DNA of 62,326 nt. Origin: Gemmatimonas sp. (GTDB lineage: Bacteria; Gemmatimonadota; Gemmatimonadetes; Gemmatimonadales; Gemmatimonadaceae). The translations under genes and the position numbers were made by a program. Shown here piece after piece: positions 979 through 43,609 of this stretch. Location of the stretch: positions 1 to 62,326 of the forward strand of contig NZ_JAJTHI010000023.1 in NCBI RefSeq assembly GCF_021298855.1. Reading direction: 5' to 3'. Positions within the stretch are counted from its first letter, which is position 1. The number at the start of each line of letters is the position of its first letter. A model generated the notes under the pieces. That model searched no databases. It was not told the DNA's origin and saw nothing but the letters and a program-made list of their open reading frames with translations.

Positions 979-2376
979 CGCCACCGGCACGATGTACCGG
1001 GCGCCGTCGCCGAAGCGCGCGAGGACCTCGGCGCGACGGCGACGGCTCACCGGAACCCTCCGGCCATTGCTCATGACACACACGGCCCCGCTGGTGGTGC
1101 GTCGCACACTGCTCACGTGGTTGGCGGCCACCCACCACGAGCGATGCACCCGCAGGCCGTGCGACGCGTCCTCGAGCTCGACGTCGGCGAGCGCCCCGAC
1201 AATCAGCGCGCACCCGCGCGGTGTCCACACCCGCAGGTACTGCAGTTCGGAGGCCACGGCGATCACATCACGGCCGATTTCCGGGGGCAGGCGTTCCCGC
1301 CACCCCCGGGGCGTGGGCACCGCAGCCGCGGTGCTCGCGCTCACCCCGGCCGCTGGGGCGCCGGCTGTGGAGGCGCCGGCTGTGGAGGCGCCGGCTGTGG
1401 AGGCGCCGGCGGCGGGGGCGGGCTCCGCGGGGCGCCACCGGGGGTCTGCCGCGATGAGCGCGACAGGCTGGACAGGCTGGACAGGCTGGACAGTCGCAGC
1501 GGGCACAGCGGGCTCGGCAGGCTGGACAAGCGCAGCGGGCGCGGCAGGCGCGATGTCGACCGGCGAGGGGCCATGAACGACCGCCGTCGTCGCCGTCTCG
1601 CCCGGCGCGCTCCCATACAGCAGGGGGGCCACCATCCAGTGCAGCCGTGGCAGGCAGATGAGCACCCACGCGGTCGTGACCGGGCCCACGATGTCGCCGT
1701 ATTCGGCCAGCATGTCGTGGCCAATGCTGACATGGTCCGGCGCGATGCCCTCCTCGTCCGGGAGGACGGCAACGCCCCACCAGCGAATCATCAGGCCCTC
1801 GCCAATGCCCCAGTACGCCGGGGCCAGCAGGACCGAACCGAGCACACCGGACAACACCACCAGCGCCCAGCTTGGCACGCGACTCGCGCCCATCAGGCGC
1901 GTCAGCAGGTGGAGCGTGGCCTGGAGGACAAGCAGCCCGACACCGATCTGCAACGTCCAGAACAGCAGCAGCACGGCGGCCGGCGCCCGGAACCCCACGT
2001 CCGGCTTCATCGTCATCACGACGGCCAGAAAGACCAGGCCCACGACCAGCAGGTAGCGCGGGAGGCTGTCGGTGGCTGCGCTCTGCCGTCCCGCCAGCGG
2101 TCGTTCAGGGGTCACGTGTGCAGGGGAAATCAAGGTGGAGACCGGCGGGCCCTGGAGCAGGACGCGGCGGAGCGCGTACACCCGGGACGCGCGGCGGAGC
2201 GGTGGCGCGCGGTCGCGAGCAGTCGCGTGCGTGGCGACCGTGCCACGGCGTGCCGGGGCTATACGGAACGGGGCCGGTGTCGGTTCCGACGAGCCGGGAC
2301 CGTGACACATCGCGCCACGGGTACACGGCGGGTGGAGGGCAGTGGCCGCCTTCGTTAACGCGCGCGCCCCTGGCAC
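925..2376 (-). CDS. Membrane-anchored LytTR-type transcriptional regulator
   Basis: Likely membrane-bound DNA-binding regulator of up to 483 residues. Four hydrophobic segments lie at about residues 105-125, 133-158, 167-193 and 230-250. A long Ala/Pro/Val-rich linker (about 270-350) follows, and the C-terminus from about 370 is a LytTR domain: VIAVASELQYLRVWTPRG, then RVHRSWWVAANHV and RRVPVSRRRRAEVL, the typical 'His-Arg-Ser-Trp ... Val ... Ser-Arg' pattern. There is no receiver domain, so signal input is probably through the membrane part or a partner. The start is uncertain: GTG at 2376 has AGGAG six bases upstream, but its first ~85 residues look non-protein-like; GTG at 2181 or 2115 are alternatives without a good ribosome site. 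The linker is encoded by short tandem repeats. Confidence 0.75.
   Translation of the reverse strand: MPGARALTKAATALHPPCTRGAMCHGPGSSEPTPAPFRIAPARRGTVATHATARDRAPPLRRASRVYALRRVLLQGPPVSTLISPAHVTPERPLAGRQSAATDSLPRYLLVVGLVFLAVVMTMKPDVGFRAPAAVLLLFWTLQIGVGLLVLQATLHLLTRLMGASRVPSWALVVLSGVLGSVLLAPAYWGIGEGLMIRWWGVAVLPDEEGIAPDHVSIGHDMLAEYGDIVGPVTTAWVLICLPRLHWMVAPLLYGSAPGETATTAVVHGPSPVDIAPAAPAALVQPAEPAVPAATVQPVQPVQPVALIAADPRWRPAEPAPAAGASTAGASTAGASTAGAPAAGVSASTAAAVPTPRGWRERLPPEIGRDVIAVASELQYLRVWTPRGCALIVGALADVELEDASHGLRVHRSWWVAANHVSSVRRTTSGAVCVMSNGRRVPVSRRRRAEVLARFGDGARYIVPVASEPVPHPDLHRKRVVAR
1361..1405. repeat. 3 x 15-bp tandem repeat inside the LytTR gene
   Basis: Three identical copies of ccggctgtggaggcg, in frame with the LytTR gene on the minus strand, where they encode an Ala-Gly-Ala-Ser-Thr repeat in the linker. 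The 15-bp unit keeps the reading frame, so copy number could vary without breaking the protein. Confidence 0.9.
1462..1492. repeat. ~3.5 x 9-bp tandem repeat inside the LytTR gene
   Basis: Three full copies of gacaggctg and a partial fourth. On the minus strand they encode a Pro-Val-Gln repeat in the same flexible linker as the 15-bp repeats. The unit is again a multiple of three. Confidence 0.85.
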
Positions 2377-11163: not shown

Positions 11164-12339
11164 CTATCGCTGGCGCTGAAGCAGGTCGAATGCCACGATG
11201 TCCACGTCCCCATCGCTGTTCTCGACGGTCGCGATAATCTGTGTGCTGTCGGCGGCGAGCATACGTACACCTTGAGGAAGTCGTATCGAGTGCCGTACGG
11301 TCCCGTTGATGTCGAACAGCAGGTAGTCCACTTGCCCGTTCGCTCCGGGCCACGGCTTCAGTAACACACTTCCGTCGCCTCGAACCAACAGCTGCGAGAC
11401 GGCAGGAACCCGCGCAGGCACGAACAGCGCGCGTCGATAGTCTTCACGCGTCGTCGGAGGGATGCGTGGATTCTTGTTGAGCGTGGCAACCGCGGAGTCC
11501 ACGAGCTGCGCGACGTCCGGAGCAGGAAGTGCTCGGGGAGTGAAGGGAAGCGGCACGTCGTACCGTACTCGCCCGCGCGCGTCCCGGAGCGAGAGTCGCG
11601 GCGCTGAGGCGCCGACTGGCGTCTCGGACGTGCTCCCGCGATCGGCTCGGGCAATCCACGAGCCATCGCCAGACCAGCCGACGAGCGTGCGATACGAGAG
11701 AGGCTGGCGCATGACCATCGTTCCTCCGCCGCGACTGATCGTCAGTGGTCCAGAAGGATCCACGAGGTCGAACAACGAGTCGCGCACCTGTGCTCCGTCT
11801 GGCGATGCCACGAAGAGCGACCAACGCCGCGCTCGGTACATGGCGCTCGCCTGACCGTCCTCCATGCTGGGCAGCAATGCGCCACGAGGGGTGACGGCGA
11901 CGGGCATGTCGAGGAGTTGCGCGCCGCGACGGCCTCCCACGAACGGTATGGTGCGCCGTGCAGCGCCAGCTACGAAGTACGTCGTGCGACGAAGGCGCCC
12001 GTCGATCACCCACAGGGTGTCGCCGATCCATCCAATCGCGCTCGCCAGCTGAATTTCGCCGGGCCCGGCACCGTTTCTCCCAACGCGTTGGACTCGTCCG
12101 TCTGCTCCAATGACGCCAACGTACGACATCCCATCAGAGAGTGCCACTCGACTGCTCGCGCTGATTGCGGCAAGTGGTTGCCAGCGAAGGTCCATGTCCG
12201 TAGTCGCGCCGCGCACGATCACCCGAGGCGCAGAAACTGTGAGTGGCGCAGGGGCAGTTTGAGCTGACAGAGAGAGCGCAGCAGCCCCTGTGACACCGAT
12301 GTACAATCGGAGAAACGGAGAAAACGCCAAGTGGCTCAT
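11164..12339 (-). CDS. Exported six-bladed beta-propeller-like protein
   Basis: 391-residue secreted protein. An N-terminal signal (LYIGVTGAAALSLSAQT) is followed by repeated strands with Asp/Gly turns. The phrase VGRNGAGPGEIQLASAIGWI with DTLWVIDGRLRRTTYFV is characteristic of the NHL-like six-bladed propeller proteins abundant in Gemmatimonadota and Bacteroidota. VDYLLFDINGTVRHSIRLPQ and DGDVDIVAFDLLQRQR form the last blade. Its ATG overlaps the stop of the upstream small Cys-rich gene (ATGA at 12336-12339), so the two are translationally coupled. It ends 3 bp from the convergent sugar isomerase gene. Binding partner unknown; no catalytic residues are evident. Confidence 0.75.
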   Translation of the reverse strand: MSHLAFSPFLRLYIGVTGAAALSLSAQTAPAPLTVSAPRVIVRGATTDMDLRWQPLAAISASSRVALSDGMSYVGVIGADGRVQRVGRNGAGPGEIQLASAIGWIGDTLWVIDGRLRRTTYFVAGAARRTIPFVGGRRGAQLLDMPVAVTPRGALLPSMEDGQASAMYRARRWSLFVASPDGAQVRDSLFDLVDPSGPLTISRGGGTMVMRQPLSYRTLVGWSGDGSWIARADRGSTSETPVGASAPRLSLRDARGRVRYDVPLPFTPRALPAPDVAQLVDSAVATLNKNPRIPPTTREDYRRALFVPARVPAVSQLLVRGDGSVLLKPWPGANGQVDYLLFDINGTVRHSIRLPQGVRMLAADSTQIIATVENSDGDVDIVAFDLLQRQR

Positions 12340-12710
12340 TCTCCGGCGGACAGCGCTGAGCTCACTCCTCTCACCCTTTCGCCGCAGCTAGTCGGGCTCA
12401 CCCGCTGATCAAACGTGGAGTTGGAAATCACCCCCGACTCTTCCCTTGTCGGCGATCCGGCCGCCACGAACCGCCAGTGCTGCATGATGATTGGCGCGGC
12501 GAGCCGTGCAAAACCGCCGCCGCACGCCCCCCACACGTAGCAGTAGTTGATTCCGTCGGAGTCACAACCTTCGGCACCGCTGCGATATGGCCCCCAGGCG
12601 CAGTTCGGGATCTCGGCCACCGAAAGCGTGCAGACTGCGCATTGGGCAAGTGCGGCTCGCCCAAACGACAACATTCCACCGGTGAGCAGCACAAGTCTGA
12701 AACGACTCAT
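12336..12710 (-). CDS. Small Cys-rich secreted protein
   Basis: 124-residue protein starting at ATG 12710 with a strong AGGAGG upstream (aaggaggggagacggATG). The signal peptide is MSRFRLVLLTGGMLSFGRAA up to ALAQ, and the mature protein begins QCAVCTLSVAEIPNCAWGPY. Eight or nine cysteines cluster in the first ~55 mature residues (CAVC, NC, GC, YCY, ACG and a late SCG), suggesting disulfides. The C-terminal ~50 residues are polar and cysteine-poor. The last codon overlaps the propeller gene. I recognise no family. The same pairing, Cys-rich then propeller-like, recurs at 41666-43050. Confidence 0.72.
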   Translation of the reverse strand: MSRFRLVLLTGGMLSFGRAALAQCAVCTLSVAEIPNCAWGPYRSGAEGCDSDGINYCYVWGACGGGFARLAAPIIMQHWRFVAAGSPTREESGVISNSTFDQRVSPTSCGERVRGVSSALSAGE

Positions 12711-12917: not shown

Positions 12918-13580
12918 GTGATGCTGTCTTCGATCATGACGCACCCTGATGCGCGGACCCTGAAGCCGGGGGTGCAAGCCGAGAAGCGGCGGATCGCGAT
13001 GACGATGCGCGAAGCCGGCAGCAGCTTCAGCGAAATCGGTCGGGCGCTGGGGGTGCACTACATGACCGTCTCGAAGTGGCGGGATCGCTATCAGGACGGC
13101 GGCGCCGACGCCCTCGCCGCGCAGAAGCGCGGGCCCGCCGTGGGGGCGCATCCTCGCCTGACGGCCAAGCAAGAGCAGGCGGTACAGCGGGCCAGTACAG
13201 ATACGACGCCCGATCAGTTGAAGCTGCCCTTCGCCTTGTGGACCCGCGCCGCCGTCGGGCAATGGATCGAGCGGAAGTACGGATTCACGTTGCCGGTGCG
13301 GACCATGGGGCATTACCTCGCGCGGTGGGGCTTCACGGCGCAGGAGCCGATCACGCGCGCCTACGAGCAGCGGCCTGAGGCCATCGCCGCGTGGCTCAAG
13401 ACCGAGTGTCCGCGGATCAAGCGGCAGGCGGCCGCCGAGGGTGAGGAGATCTACTGGGGCGATGAAACAAGCCTCAGTACGAGCGATCCGCGGGGCCGCG
13501 GCTTCGCGCCACGAGGCAAGACGCCCGTGCGCCCGATCCTCTCCCAGCGCCGATCAGTCAGCCTTGTCATTTACACCTAG
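12918..13580 (+). pseudogene. IS630-family transposase, 3'-truncated
   Basis: 220-residue N-terminal piece of a Tc1/mariner-IS630 transposase. A helix-turn-helix (SSFSEIGRALGVHYMTVSKW) and winged domain ([20 protein letters not shown]) lead into the first catalytic Asp block [20 protein letters not shown] and then [16 protein letters not shown]. The second Asp and the Glu are missing. The last codons (VIYT and the stop) come from a 14-bp stretch identical to the tip of the IS481 end. ATG 12936 is an alternative start. It cannot encode an active enzyme. Confidence 0.85.
13562..13575. repeat. Relic of an IS481 terminal end
   Basis: The 14 bases ccttgtcatttaca are identical to 10282-10295, the outermost part of the IS481 right end, and lie exactly where the IS630-like transposase stops making sense. 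This looks like the scar of a lost IS481 copy. Confidence 0.7.
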
Positions 13581-13582
13581 GG

Positions 13583-14724
13583 TGAGTCAGAAGTTCGCAG
13601 CAACGAATACTGCCGGCGGTGCGTATCTCCAGTACCTTGGAGATGCGATGCCTTCTGCGAAGCTGCCCCCGGTGATCCTGAGTGACGACGAGCGTGCGAC
13701 GTTGCACGAGTGGACGCGCCGGCGGCGCACCGCGCAAGCGATGGCGTTGCGGGCCCGCATCGTCTTGGCGGCCAGCACCGGCGCGACCAACACGGCGATT
13801 GCCGAGAGGCTGGGCGTCGTGATTCCCACCGTGGGCAAGTGGCGCCGGCGCTTTCTCCGTCAGCGGATCGCCGGGCTGTTGGATGAGCCGCGCGTTGGCG
13901 CGCCGCGAAGGATTTCGGATGCCGAGGTCGAGACGGCGATTCGCACCACGCTCGAATCGCGGCCGAAGGATGCGACGCACTGGAGCACGCGCTCGCTGGC
14001 GCGGAAGCTCGGCTTGAGCCAGAGCACGGTCAGTCGCATGTGGCGGGCCTTCGGACTACAGCCGCATCGGGTCGAGACCTTCAAGCTGTCGACCGATCCG
14101 CAGTTCATCGAGAAGGTGCGCGACATTGTCGGCTTGTACCTCGACCCACCCGACCGCGCGCTCGTGTTGTGCGTCGATGAGAAGTCGCAGATCCAAGCGC
14201 TGGACCGGACGCAGCCGCTGCTGCCGATAAAGCCGGGCCAGGTCGAGCGGCGCACACACGATTACGTGCGCCATGGCACGGTGTCCCTCTTCGCGGCCTT
14301 GGATGCGAAGACCGGCGAGATCATCGGGCGCTGTGAAGCGCGCCATCGGTCCCAAGAGTTCCGTAAGTTCCTCGATCAGATCGACCGCCGTGTCCCTGCA
14401 GATCTCGACGTGCATCTGATCCTCGACAACTACGGCACCCACAAGACCGCGACCATTCGGCGGTGGCTGGCCAAGCGTCCTCGCTTCCACGTGCATTTCA
14501 CCCCAACCAGCGCGTCATGGATCAACATGGTGGAACGCTGGTTCGGGGAGCTGACGCGGAAGCAGCTCAAGCGCGGCGCGCATCGCAGCACCGACGCGCT
14601 GGAGGACGCGATCATGGCCTACATCGCGCACACCAACAAGGATCCGAAGCCGTTCGTCTGGACGAAGACGTCCGACGAGATCCTCGACAGCGTCAAGCGG
14701 TTCTGTCAACGAACTTCTGGCTCA
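13583..14724 (+). mobile_element. IS630-family insertion sequence, apparently intact
   Basis: Element bounded by 15-bp inverted ends tgagtcagaagttcg (13583-13597) and cgaacttctggctca (14710-14724), one mismatch, enclosing one complete transposase gene. IS630 elements insert at TA; TA dinucleotides sit at 13578-13579 and 14731-14732, but the distances to the inverted ends differ, so exact boundaries are uncertain. The right end abuts the stop codon of the small membrane protein at 14730-14891. Confidence 0.75.
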
Positions 14725-14733
14725 GCACACTAG
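13648..14733 (+). CDS. IS630-family transposase
   Basis: 361-residue DDE transposase of the IS630/Tc1-mariner group, full length for the family. ATG 13648 has GGAG six bases upstream (cttggagatgcgATG). Domains: helix-turn-helix 1 ([20 protein letters not shown]), helix-turn-helix 2 ([20 protein letters not shown]), then the catalytic core with [36 protein letters not shown] and [20 protein letters not shown], giving D-D-E. No internal lesion is seen, so the copy could be active. It is unrelated in sequence to the truncated copy upstream. Confidence 0.92.
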
Positions 14734-41665: not shown

Positions 41666-41914
41666 ATGCCCTTCCCCACGAAGTTCGCCGGCCGTGTTCG
41701 GCTGCCGCGTCTCCTGCAGCGCGCGTACCTGTGGCCGCTGGCCCTGCTCCTCGTTCCCTCGGCCCTCGAAACACAGCGCCGCCGCGGCTGCCCGCAGTTC
41801 GCGCGGGTGCCGGGCTACGGCGCCTGCGCCAACATCGGCGGCAACAGCTGCGGCTTCTGCACCTACCGCTGCAACGACGACACCGTGGTGCGCTGGAACG
41901 TGTGCGGGCAGTAG
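41666..41914 (+). CDS. Small Cys-rich secreted protein
   Basis: 82-residue protein. A basic N-terminus and a hydrophobic stretch (LQRAYLWPLALLLVPSALE) make a signal peptide. The mature ~45 residues (RRRGCPQFARVPGYGACANI, then GGNSCGFCTYRCNDDTVVRW, NVCGQ) hold six cysteines, consistent with a small disulfide-rich or metal-binding module. The next gene starts inside its last codons. It parallels the Cys-rich gene at 12336-12710, although the two show no obvious alignment beyond cysteine richness and size class. No family recognised. Confidence 0.65.
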   Translation: MPFPTKFAGRVRLPRLLQRAYLWPLALLLVPSALETQRRRGCPQFARVPGYGACANIGGNSCGFCTYRCNDDTVVRWNVCGQ

Positions 41915-43050
41915 TCCGGTGCCGCGGCGCCGCGCTCCTGCTGGCGCTCGGCGGCTGTTCGGGCACGGAGGACGCCACCGACGAGGCGCCGGACGCGCTG
42001 CGCCCCGCCATGAACGCGCGCACGGTGTATCCGGCCAAGCGTGAGGAGTGGCGAACCGACATCACCCCGCACACCGACAGCACGATGGTGCCGCGGGTGT
42101 TCCGCGCCAGCCGCACCACCGTGGCGCTGCTGCAGGACGCTCCCGCGCGCATCTCGCAGTTCGAGCTGCACGGCAAGGGCATGCTGCTGTCCACGCGACC
42201 GGCGCGGGTGGACTCCGTCCTGCACGCGGAGGTGCCACGCGACATCGTCGCGCCCACCGACCTGTCGCGCGTCACCAACGACGGTCAGGTGGACGTGGTG
42301 GACAGCGCCACCAGCACCCTCGTGCGCGAGTCGATCGGCGGCTACGTGTTTCGCCGCGACCTGCCATTGCTGCGCGGCGGCAGCGGACGCCTGTGCACGG
42401 TGGCGCCGGCCACGCTGTTGCACGTCCGGCAGCTGGGGCCGCGCCGTGTGCTCGAGGCGTTCACGCTTACGGCGAACGCCGCCGATGACGCGCTCACGGG
42501 CCGGCATCGCATCGTCGGCGAAACGGGCGCGCGCCTGCGCTTCGGCAGTGGCGACGTGCGGCGGTGTCTGCTCATCACCCAGCGCAACGTGTTCATCGTG
42601 AGTGCCCCAGCGCTCGACAGTCCGCAGGCGGCGCCGCGCGTGGAACCACTGCGCCCACCAGGCGACACCGGGCGCCGGCGCATCGGTGAGTCCGGTGATC
42701 CGGCGAGCGCCCCACGACAGCCCTATGTGGTGGACGCCTCCATCGTGGACGGCGGATTCGTGGTGCTGCTGGGGACGATCTCCGACCAGCAGGGGCGACT
42801 GGTGGACTACTACGACGAGCAGGGGCGCTATCTGCAGAGCGCCATGCTGCCCTTCACCGCATCGGCCATGGCCGGTGCCGGCCCGCGCTTTCTCGTGCTG
42901 CACCGGGACCCGCAGTATCGCTGGTGGCTGTCCTCGTGGCTCACCCCCATGGCCGCGCGCGGGGCCACACCGCCACCGGAACCGCCGCGACTCGAGAAGG
43001 CCCCGGAGCGGCAGCTGTTCGAACCGCCGCGGCGAGGCACCACGAACTAG
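41902..43050 (+). CDS. Exported lipoprotein, beta-propeller-like
   Basis: 382-residue lipoprotein started at GTG 41902, which overlaps the Cys-rich gene by 13 bp. Lipobox GAALLLALGGCSG. The body alternates short strands and turns with propeller-like units: DGQVDVVDSATSTLVRESIG, LTGRHRIVGETGARLRFGSG, DGGFVVLLGTISDQQGRLVD and YYDEQGRYLQSAMLPFTASA. It is similar in size and layout to the propeller protein at 11164. Its stop shares the palindrome CTAG (43047-43050) with the convergent ParE toxin gene. Confidence 0.65.
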   Translation: MRAVVRCRGAALLLALGGCSGTEDATDEAPDALRPAMNARTVYPAKREEWRTDITPHTDSTMVPRVFRASRTTVALLQDAPARISQFELHGKGMLLSTRPARVDSVLHAEVPRDIVAPTDLSRVTNDGQVDVVDSATSTLVRESIGGYVFRRDLPLLRGGSGRLCTVAPATLLHVRQLGPRRVLEAFTLTANAADDALTGRHRIVGETGARLRFGSGDVRRCLLITQRNVFIVSAPALDSPQAAPRVEPLRPPGDTGRRRIGESGDPASAPRQPYVVDASIVDGGFVVLLGTISDQQGRLVDYYDEQGRYLQSAMLPFTASAMAGAGPRFLVLHRDPQYRWWLSSWLTPMAARGATPPPEPPRLEKAPERQLFEPPRRGTTN

Positions 43051-43364
43051 CCTGAACGTCCTTGGCGTGACAGTCGGGATGCGCGCAGCTTTCGTTCTGA
43101 ACGCATGACGTGAAGGATGAGCACACGCTCGCCGTCTACGCGATAGAAGATGCGACACGGCGGTTCGACGATCTGCCGATAGCGCGTACTGCGGGCAAAC
43201 TCGCGCGGGCGGCTGCCGCTGTCCGGATGCGTGGCGAGCTGCTCGACGTGGGCGACGATCCGCTGCACCAAGGCTGATGCGGCGTGCCGACTCTCAATGG
43301 CGATGTAGTCGGCAATCGCTTCCAGGTCTGCGAGCGCCGGCTCCGTCCAGACTATCTCAGCCAC
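43047..43364 (-). CDS. parE: RelE/ParE-family toxin
   Basis: 105-residue toxin of the RelE/ParE superfamily. Family motifs: VWTEPALADLEAIADYIAIE, AASALVQRIVAHVEQLATHP, SGSRPREFARSTRYRQIVEP and CRIFYRVDGERVLILHVMRS. ParE members poison DNA gyrase and RelE members cleave mRNA; the sequence favours ParE-like. Its start overlaps the antitoxin gene by 13 bp, the usual antitoxin-first order. Its stop overlaps the convergent lipoprotein stop. Confidence 0.9.
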   Translation of the reverse strand: MAEIVWTEPALADLEAIADYIAIESRHAASALVQRIVAHVEQLATHPDSGSRPREFARSTRYRQIVEPPCRIFYRVDGERVLILHVMRSERKLRASRLSRQGRSG

Positions 43365-43609
43365 CTGGCGAGCCGCGCTTTCGCCTCCTCGTGCGAAACG
43401 ACGCGGTCATCCGCGACCGCCATTTCTCCGCGCGCGATCCCCTCGAGAATCGCCATGCGCTCCTGCTGTCGATGGTACGATTCCACATCGACCAGATACG
43501 CACTGGGGAGCCCATGCTGGGTAATCAGGATGGGCTCCTTGTCACGCTCGAGCTCGGCCAGCAGCTCGGTTGCCTGACGCTTCAGCGTCGTCACCAGTTC
43601 CGTGCGCAT
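43352..43609 (-). CDS. Phd/YefM-family antitoxin
   Basis: 85-residue antitoxin. The N-terminal DNA-binding part (TLKRQATELLAELERDKEPI, LITQHGLPSAYLVDVESYHR) matches the Phd/YefM fold, and the C-terminal AILEGIARGEMAVADDRVVS with HEEAKARLARWLR is the toxin-binding tail. It should neutralise the ParE-like toxin and autoregulate through the palindrome at 43611-43630. Confidence 0.9.
   Translation of the reverse strand: MRTELVTTLKRQATELLAELERDKEPILITQHGLPSAYLVDVESYHRQQERMAILEGIARGEMAVADDRVVSHEEAKARLARWLR

Follow-up and report, generated by a model that had tools for sequence, protein, structure and literature searches.

In several bacterial systems, the gene of an operon-specific thiol oxidoreductase lies beside that of a presumed exported substrate. 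AssT-DsbL-DsbI, in which AssT is a propeller, and the bacteriocin systems of the BdbB type follow this principle, and some disulfide-bonded bacteriocins are folded by thiol oxidoreductases. The methylamine dehydrogenase (MADH) operon brings together the MauA light chain, the MauB propeller, the MauD thioredoxin and MauE. In Bacteroidota, genes of NVEALA proteins adjoin propeller genes.

Soil and freshwater harbour abundant Gemmatimonadota, yet few experiments have addressed this phylum. The window analyzed here, a 62,326-nucleotide stretch of a Gemmatimonas genome (contig NZ_JAJTHI010000023.1; source genome G000), contains two loci, A and B, at which the gene of a small cysteine-rich exported protein (S) overlaps that of a larger exported protein, which at locus A is a predicted beta-propeller (P). 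Comparison with other genomes of the phylum points to a wider arrangement, in which S and P are accompanied by a membrane-anchored, DsbA-like oxidoreductase (T). Our search of the open literature returned no paper describing such a Gemmatimonad system, which is weak evidence of novelty since most subscription journals lie outside that search; it likewise returned no paper on NVEALA.

A small cysteine-rich gene overlaps a propeller gene at locus A

Locus A (12710-11164, minus strand) is organized as the initial annotation had described it. The upstream gene (12336..12710, minus strand) encodes S-A, a 124-aa exported cysteine-rich protein with homologues encoded before propellers, and starts with an ATG behind a strong Shine-Dalgarno ribosome-binding site (AAGGAGGGGAGACGG-ATG); its stop codon overlaps the start codon of the P gene (11164..12339, minus strand) in the sequence ATGA. 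The signal peptide ends in ALA|QCAVC, so that the mature part opens with QCAVC. The mature protein has seven cysteines, six in an N-terminal cluster and one, also conserved, near the C-terminus; given this odd number, one thiol may be free or engaged in an intermolecular bond.

Six Gemmatimonas genomes (G000, G015, G001, G010, G021 and G017) have an A-type S gene directly before P, and the pairing is kept despite different flanking genes. Relatives of S-A that start with QCAxC precede propellers in G001, G010, G015 and G021, while the small gene before the propeller in G017 has a related architecture. Between G000 and G015, the cysteine cluster shows a pN of 0.10 against a pS of 0.80, selection is relaxed in the C-terminal half, and S is more diverged than P (50% versus 65% identity). 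Judged by these substitutions, S-A is a real gene under purifying selection.

The P gene encodes a 391-aa exported protein with a GRNGAGPGE motif, which its model and profile assign to the six-bladed propellers of NHL/DUF5128 type. The AlphaFold2 model has a mean pLDDT of 86 and a pTM of 0.84, and the best matches in a fold search (VIA) were the NHL domain of Brat (Z 16.0), DUF4221 (3s9j, Z 15.9) and BF0058 (4raa, Z 14.6). A profile built from 24 relatives matches TRIM NHL chains in the PDB at 1e-25 to 1e-30. P is thus a confidently modelled six-bladed propeller, which joins the DUF5128/NHL group by predicted fold. P itself has no Pfam match at E<=10 and does not reach the gathering score of PF17170 (DUF5128), 22.9 bits, which a paired homologue (L066) passes with 27.7 bits; in G010, the PF17170 cut-off is exceeded by a relative in a similar arrangement. 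At the threshold used, the source genome encodes a single propeller of the locus A type.

The region upstream of A-type S genes varies. A gene for a lipoprotein-like protein of about 300 aa without a Pfam match (U) lies directly upstream of S at L133:6741-7481 (minus strand), L134:7545-8324 (minus strand) and L138:4801-5694 (plus strand), and U-S-P trios are found in G010, G017 and G021. The source genome carries insertion-sequence-type transposase ORFs at the U position: two overlapping transposase-type ORFs at 12918-14733 (plus strand), directly upstream of S-A and on the opposite strand. This suggests that an insertion upstream of S-A replaced or cut U.

Locus B holds a different conserved pair

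The region 41666-43050 had been annotated as a recurrence of the locus A pair, with the same ATGA overlap. What holds is that it contains a conserved pair of a small cysteine-rich protein and an exported partner; the overlap is of 13 bp, at a GTG, and involves no ATGA. The S-B gene (41666..41914, plus strand) encodes an exported protein of 82 aa, whose mature part of about 41 aa has six cysteines (CPQFARVPGYGACANIGGNSCGFCTYRCNDDTVVRWNVCGQ). Its partner (41902..43050, plus strand) is a predicted lipoprotein of 382 aa that starts at the GTG at 41902. The longer ORF initially listed for the partner (41731-43050) is an artefact of stop-to-stop reading; conservation places the start at GTG 41902, which is followed by a lipoprotein signal (MRAVVRCRGAALLLALGGC).

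B-type pairs are found in about 20 Gemmatimonas genomes, with a near-invariant mature peptide. A GTG stands at or beside the same overlap position (-12, once -15) in all 17 loci with a readable partner start, the window included, a conservation that follows in part from the conserved V-C-G codons. The median dN/dS of S-B is 0.12 over 170 pairs and, by this measure, S-B too is a real gene under purifying selection. A scan of 84,980 species confined it to Gemmatimonas-type genomes. The partner has a mean column identity of 73% over 14 genomes and co-occurs with S-B: it is absent from the sampled Gemmatimonas genomes that lack S-B.

The partners at both loci had been described as propeller-like. 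While this description agrees with the model at locus A, no propeller fold is demonstrated at locus B, where AlphaFold2, given 14 close homologues as input, produced a low-confidence model (pLDDT 41), and the partner has no sequence match in the PDB. A profile comparison (hhalign) of the B partner with the locus A propeller family gave a probability of 1.8%. The overlaps differ, no homology between the partners was found, and A and B are not recognizable as two copies of one pair. Each is nevertheless a conserved module, as the initial annotation had supposed from adjacency, with a peptide and its receptor as a possible meaning: the pairing might have been lost in related genomes, or the small ORFs might have been free of purifying selection, and at both loci pairing and selection proved to be maintained.

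Two short ORFs on the minus strand converge on the B pair: one at 43047-43364, presumably a RelE/ParE-like toxin gene, and one at 43352-43609, presumably that of a Phd-like antitoxin, both named by eye. The stop codon of the toxin ORF overlaps that of the B partner.

The small proteins fall outside known families

None of the four window proteins had a match in Pfam, NCBIfam or PADLOC scans. The S proteins of the wider cassette presented below likewise matched no Pfam or NCBIfam family, bacteriocin families and the MADH light chain included, and by these profile searches the S proteins are outside the known families of both collections. The similarity to NVEALA proteins and their neighbouring propellers, which had been noted initially, survives on the propeller side, through the PF17170 homologues and the DUF4221 and BF0058 folds of Bacteroidota. 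It fails for the small proteins: neither one of the window matches the NVEALA profile (PF14055) at E<=10, and the NVEALA motif is absent from their leader/mature junctions (AALAQC in A, ETQRRRGC in B), which rules out membership of S-A and S-B in that family. In 30 Gemmatimonas genomes no protein exceeded the PF14055 cut-off (27 bits); the control set exceeded it in one genome.

An S-T-P cassette recurs across Gemmatimonadota

The B peptide profile has a distant match in G122 (E=1.4e-6), to an S gene whose operon reads S, DsbA-like thioredoxin, propeller; this propeller passes PF17170 with 27.4 bits. Nearly all members of a first set of T genes had a small exported cysteine-rich ORF immediately 5' and a propeller gene overlapping or just 3'. 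Although two of the first T seeds (G122 and G244) had been found through S, most T loci came from a search of the phylum by T alone, in which 25 of 30 loci had such an upstream ORF under an automatic rule, a few of these ORFs seeming spurious. The theme of small cysteine-rich ORFs beside propellers, which the initial annotation had proposed to look for in Gemmatimonadota, is thus found across the phylum. The third component had escaped that annotation because the source genome lacks T at both loci.

We quantified the association on pooled loci, using the same criterion for all genes, namely a small signal-peptide ORF with at least five cysteines just upstream. Such an ORF directly precedes 29 of 51 T genes and 16 of 139 propeller genes, compared with 17 of 482 other genes (Fisher p=2e-22 for T and 6e-4 for P). 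Some automatic S calls beside T appear spurious (e.g. L294 and L314), and those near genes other than T or P are mostly GC-rich artefacts, so that the background is if anything overestimated. The remaining 123 of the 139 propellers of the locus A type have no S directly upstream, which implies that P must function without S too.

The usual gene order is S-T-P, with S-P-T or S-P in some cases; S comes first. In recurrent S-T-P cassettes, the T and P reading frames overlap by about 20-60 nt. T is recognizable across the phylum, while cassette S proteins share a mean column identity of only 20%, and a single genome may contain several cassettes and tandem S genes. In G021, for example, two related S genes lie in tandem before one T (L284:1046-1288 and 1386-1640, plus strand), which suggests duplication and diversification of S. 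When 129 propellers are placed on a tree, those linked to T and those linked to S are scattered, well-supported branches forcing at least nine and at least six changes, respectively. The module therefore does not form one clade: it has been repeatedly gained, lost or reshuffled, or else retained.

Profile links from the window to the cassettes are weak. No match was found between the profile of the B peptide and that of the pooled cassette S proteins, and the A-type S proteins are connected to cassette S by the signal peptide and a CxxC alone. As the source genome has one such propeller and no cassette-type T, we read loci A and B as reduced, T-less versions of an S-(T)-P cassette. The S-T-P arrangement is apparently an undescribed and widespread cassette of Gemmatimonadota.

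Other genes were observed in these neighbourhoods. A carboxypeptidase-regulatory repeat protein of about 800 aa, with a weakly TonB-plug-like C-terminus, is encoded in 8 of 40 T loci (L330:483-2930, minus strand, and relatives); it is a possible outer-membrane partner of S-T cassettes. A second type of small exported cysteine-rich protein, with the motif PSCSSGTPRPC or PTCSSGTSNPC, is found in two genomes (L260 and L246:5845-6168, plus strand). Behind its genes, near propellers, lies another kind of short membrane-type gene, in what looks like a parallel pairing.

The oxidoreductase and the cysteines of S

The T family has an invariant CPxC, a TP cis-proline motif, two further invariant cysteines and an N-terminal membrane anchor with a positively charged N-terminus. 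T scores 39.2 bits against 25.6 for PF01323 (DSBA) and 62.2 against 23.2 for PF13462 (Thioredoxin_4), and by profile the T proteins of the relatives belong to the DsbA-like/Thioredoxin_4 group. The best matches to the T profile in the source genome are at housekeeping level (1.8e-23).

If all cysteines of cassette S proteins pair into disulfides, their number is expected to be even. Counted after residue 20, it is even in each of the 26 curated proteins (13 with eight cysteines, 12 with six and one with ten) and in 28 of 33 automatically picked ones (p=3e-5); two or more of the five odd picks look like leader miscounts. A-type S proteins, which occur without T, have an odd number, seven or nine, unlike cassette S; S-B has six, an even number. 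Export of S, as predicted from the signal peptides, and its disulfide chemistry are well supported at the sequence level, and we infer that T would carry out the oxidation.

Discussion

We give roughly even credence to the following explanation: loci A and B belong, without T, to an envelope cassette of modular build, in which S is exported, braced by disulfides (through T in the cassettes that encode it) and finally bound by P. S would be made as a Sec-type precursor and exported, after which oxidation of its cysteines would knot it, through disulfides, into a compact miniprotein. This step would in most cassettes fall to T, as a dedicated, DsbA-like CPxC oxidoreductase anchored in the inner membrane on the periplasmic side; the general Dsb machinery would take it over in the source genome, whose T relatives are of housekeeping level only. 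The six-bladed propeller P, made from the same message and either exported or held by a lipid anchor, would bind folded S and hold or present it at the envelope. On this view, specificity would reside in S, as an exchangeable ligand or subunit, with P as the conserved scaffold. Oxidation by T, physical binding, presentation at the surface and the final role of the system are conjectural parts of this scheme.

Several other explanations must be weighed against it. S could be a secreted weapon or signal, i.e. a released antimicrobial or pheromone-like peptide, with T as folding catalyst and P as carrier, sensor or self-protection. Its small, disulfide-rich type fits this idea, as do its high diversity beside a T recognizable phylum-wide and the multiplicity of cassettes and tandem S genes per genome. 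However, the B peptide is almost invariant in the genus, with a dN/dS unlike that of a diversifying toxin; moreover, the signal peptide is the sole export feature, no immunity gene is recognizable, and S has neither a PADLOC match nor a match to a Pfam or NCBIfam bacteriocin family. We find a peptide of this kind unlikely. We also regard as improbable that S is a structural subunit only, a disulfide-braced cap or small subunit bound permanently to P, neither exchangeable nor signalling, whose diversity tracks the divergence of P. The tight translational overlaps at A and B would favour such stoichiometric synthesis and both B proteins are strongly conserved, but in most cassettes S adjoins T rather than P, many propellers of the same family have no S, and at locus A S has diverged further than P.

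The combination of a small cysteine-rich exported subunit, an anchored CPxC thioredoxin and a propeller in one operon also recalls an enzyme of the MADH type. S would then correspond to the catalytic light chain, whose cofactor derives from the protein itself, P to the propeller heavy chain, and T to MauD, the thioredoxin that allows the light chain to fold. Such an enzyme is very unlikely: a tryptophan pair is not conserved in cassette S (of 26 proteins, 6 lack the residue altogether and only 9 have two or more), S does not match the Pfam light-chain family, and no multi-pass MauE-like gene recurs beside T. For want of conserved tryptophans and of a family match, membership in MADH was rejected. 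Finally, S, T and P might share no function and have come together by chance in operons that encode many exported proteins. Just 16 of 139 propellers have S directly upstream, and in G000 and G015 the A-type pairs have genes of insertion-sequence type nearby. Yet the pairing persists in changing gene contexts and is enriched over other genes of the same stretches, and the overlap of the B pair is kept in every readable relative; we give coincidence hardly any weight.

Under the explanation that we prefer, in which exported S is braced by disulfides and bound by P, the association with an anchored disulfide-making enzyme suggests purpose-built production and display of disulfide-knotted miniproteins. 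A bolder reading, which is possible and which we hold tentatively, is that of a phylum-wide, multi-copy envelope system of diversified miniproteins, each folded by its own membrane-anchored DsbA-like enzyme and passed on to six-bladed propellers that display or recognize them, in other words, of bacterial peptide ligands whose folding catalyst is part of the system. If recurrent cassettes do combine secreted miniproteins with a disulfide catalyst of their own and a partnering propeller, they would constitute a new module of the envelope and offer disulfide-rich peptide scaffolds that nature has already diversified. The cassette poses a tractable question, namely the identity of S and the ligand of P, and gives a genomic rule by which small ORFs without a family can be recognized.

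Comparison with known systems

NVEALA proteins of Bacteroidota are small, exported and cysteine-rich as S is, and differ from it by the PF14055 profile and their motif. The Bacteroidota propellers of PF17170, DUF4221 (3s9j) and BF0058 (4raa) share fold, export and a GxGPGE-type blade motif with the locus A propeller; as regards PF17170, homologues in similar cassettes pass the cut-off whereas the propeller of the window does not. T differs from DsbA-like and Thioredoxin_4 proteins in its added N-terminal anchor, its two additional invariant cysteines and the S gene directly upstream. Compared with dedicated Dsb pairs, the cassette has a presumed separate miniprotein as substrate, and its oxidoreductase has a membrane anchor of its own. 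The Mau operon, like S-T-P, produces a small cysteine-rich exported protein together with an anchored CPxC thioredoxin and a propeller; cassette S differs by the lack of the tryptophan pair and of a light-chain family match, and the cassette by the lack of a MauE-like neighbour. By analogy with these systems, the logic of a dedicated oxidoreductase, its substrate and a propeller would be the known part of the cassette, and the families of small proteins placed in it the new one.
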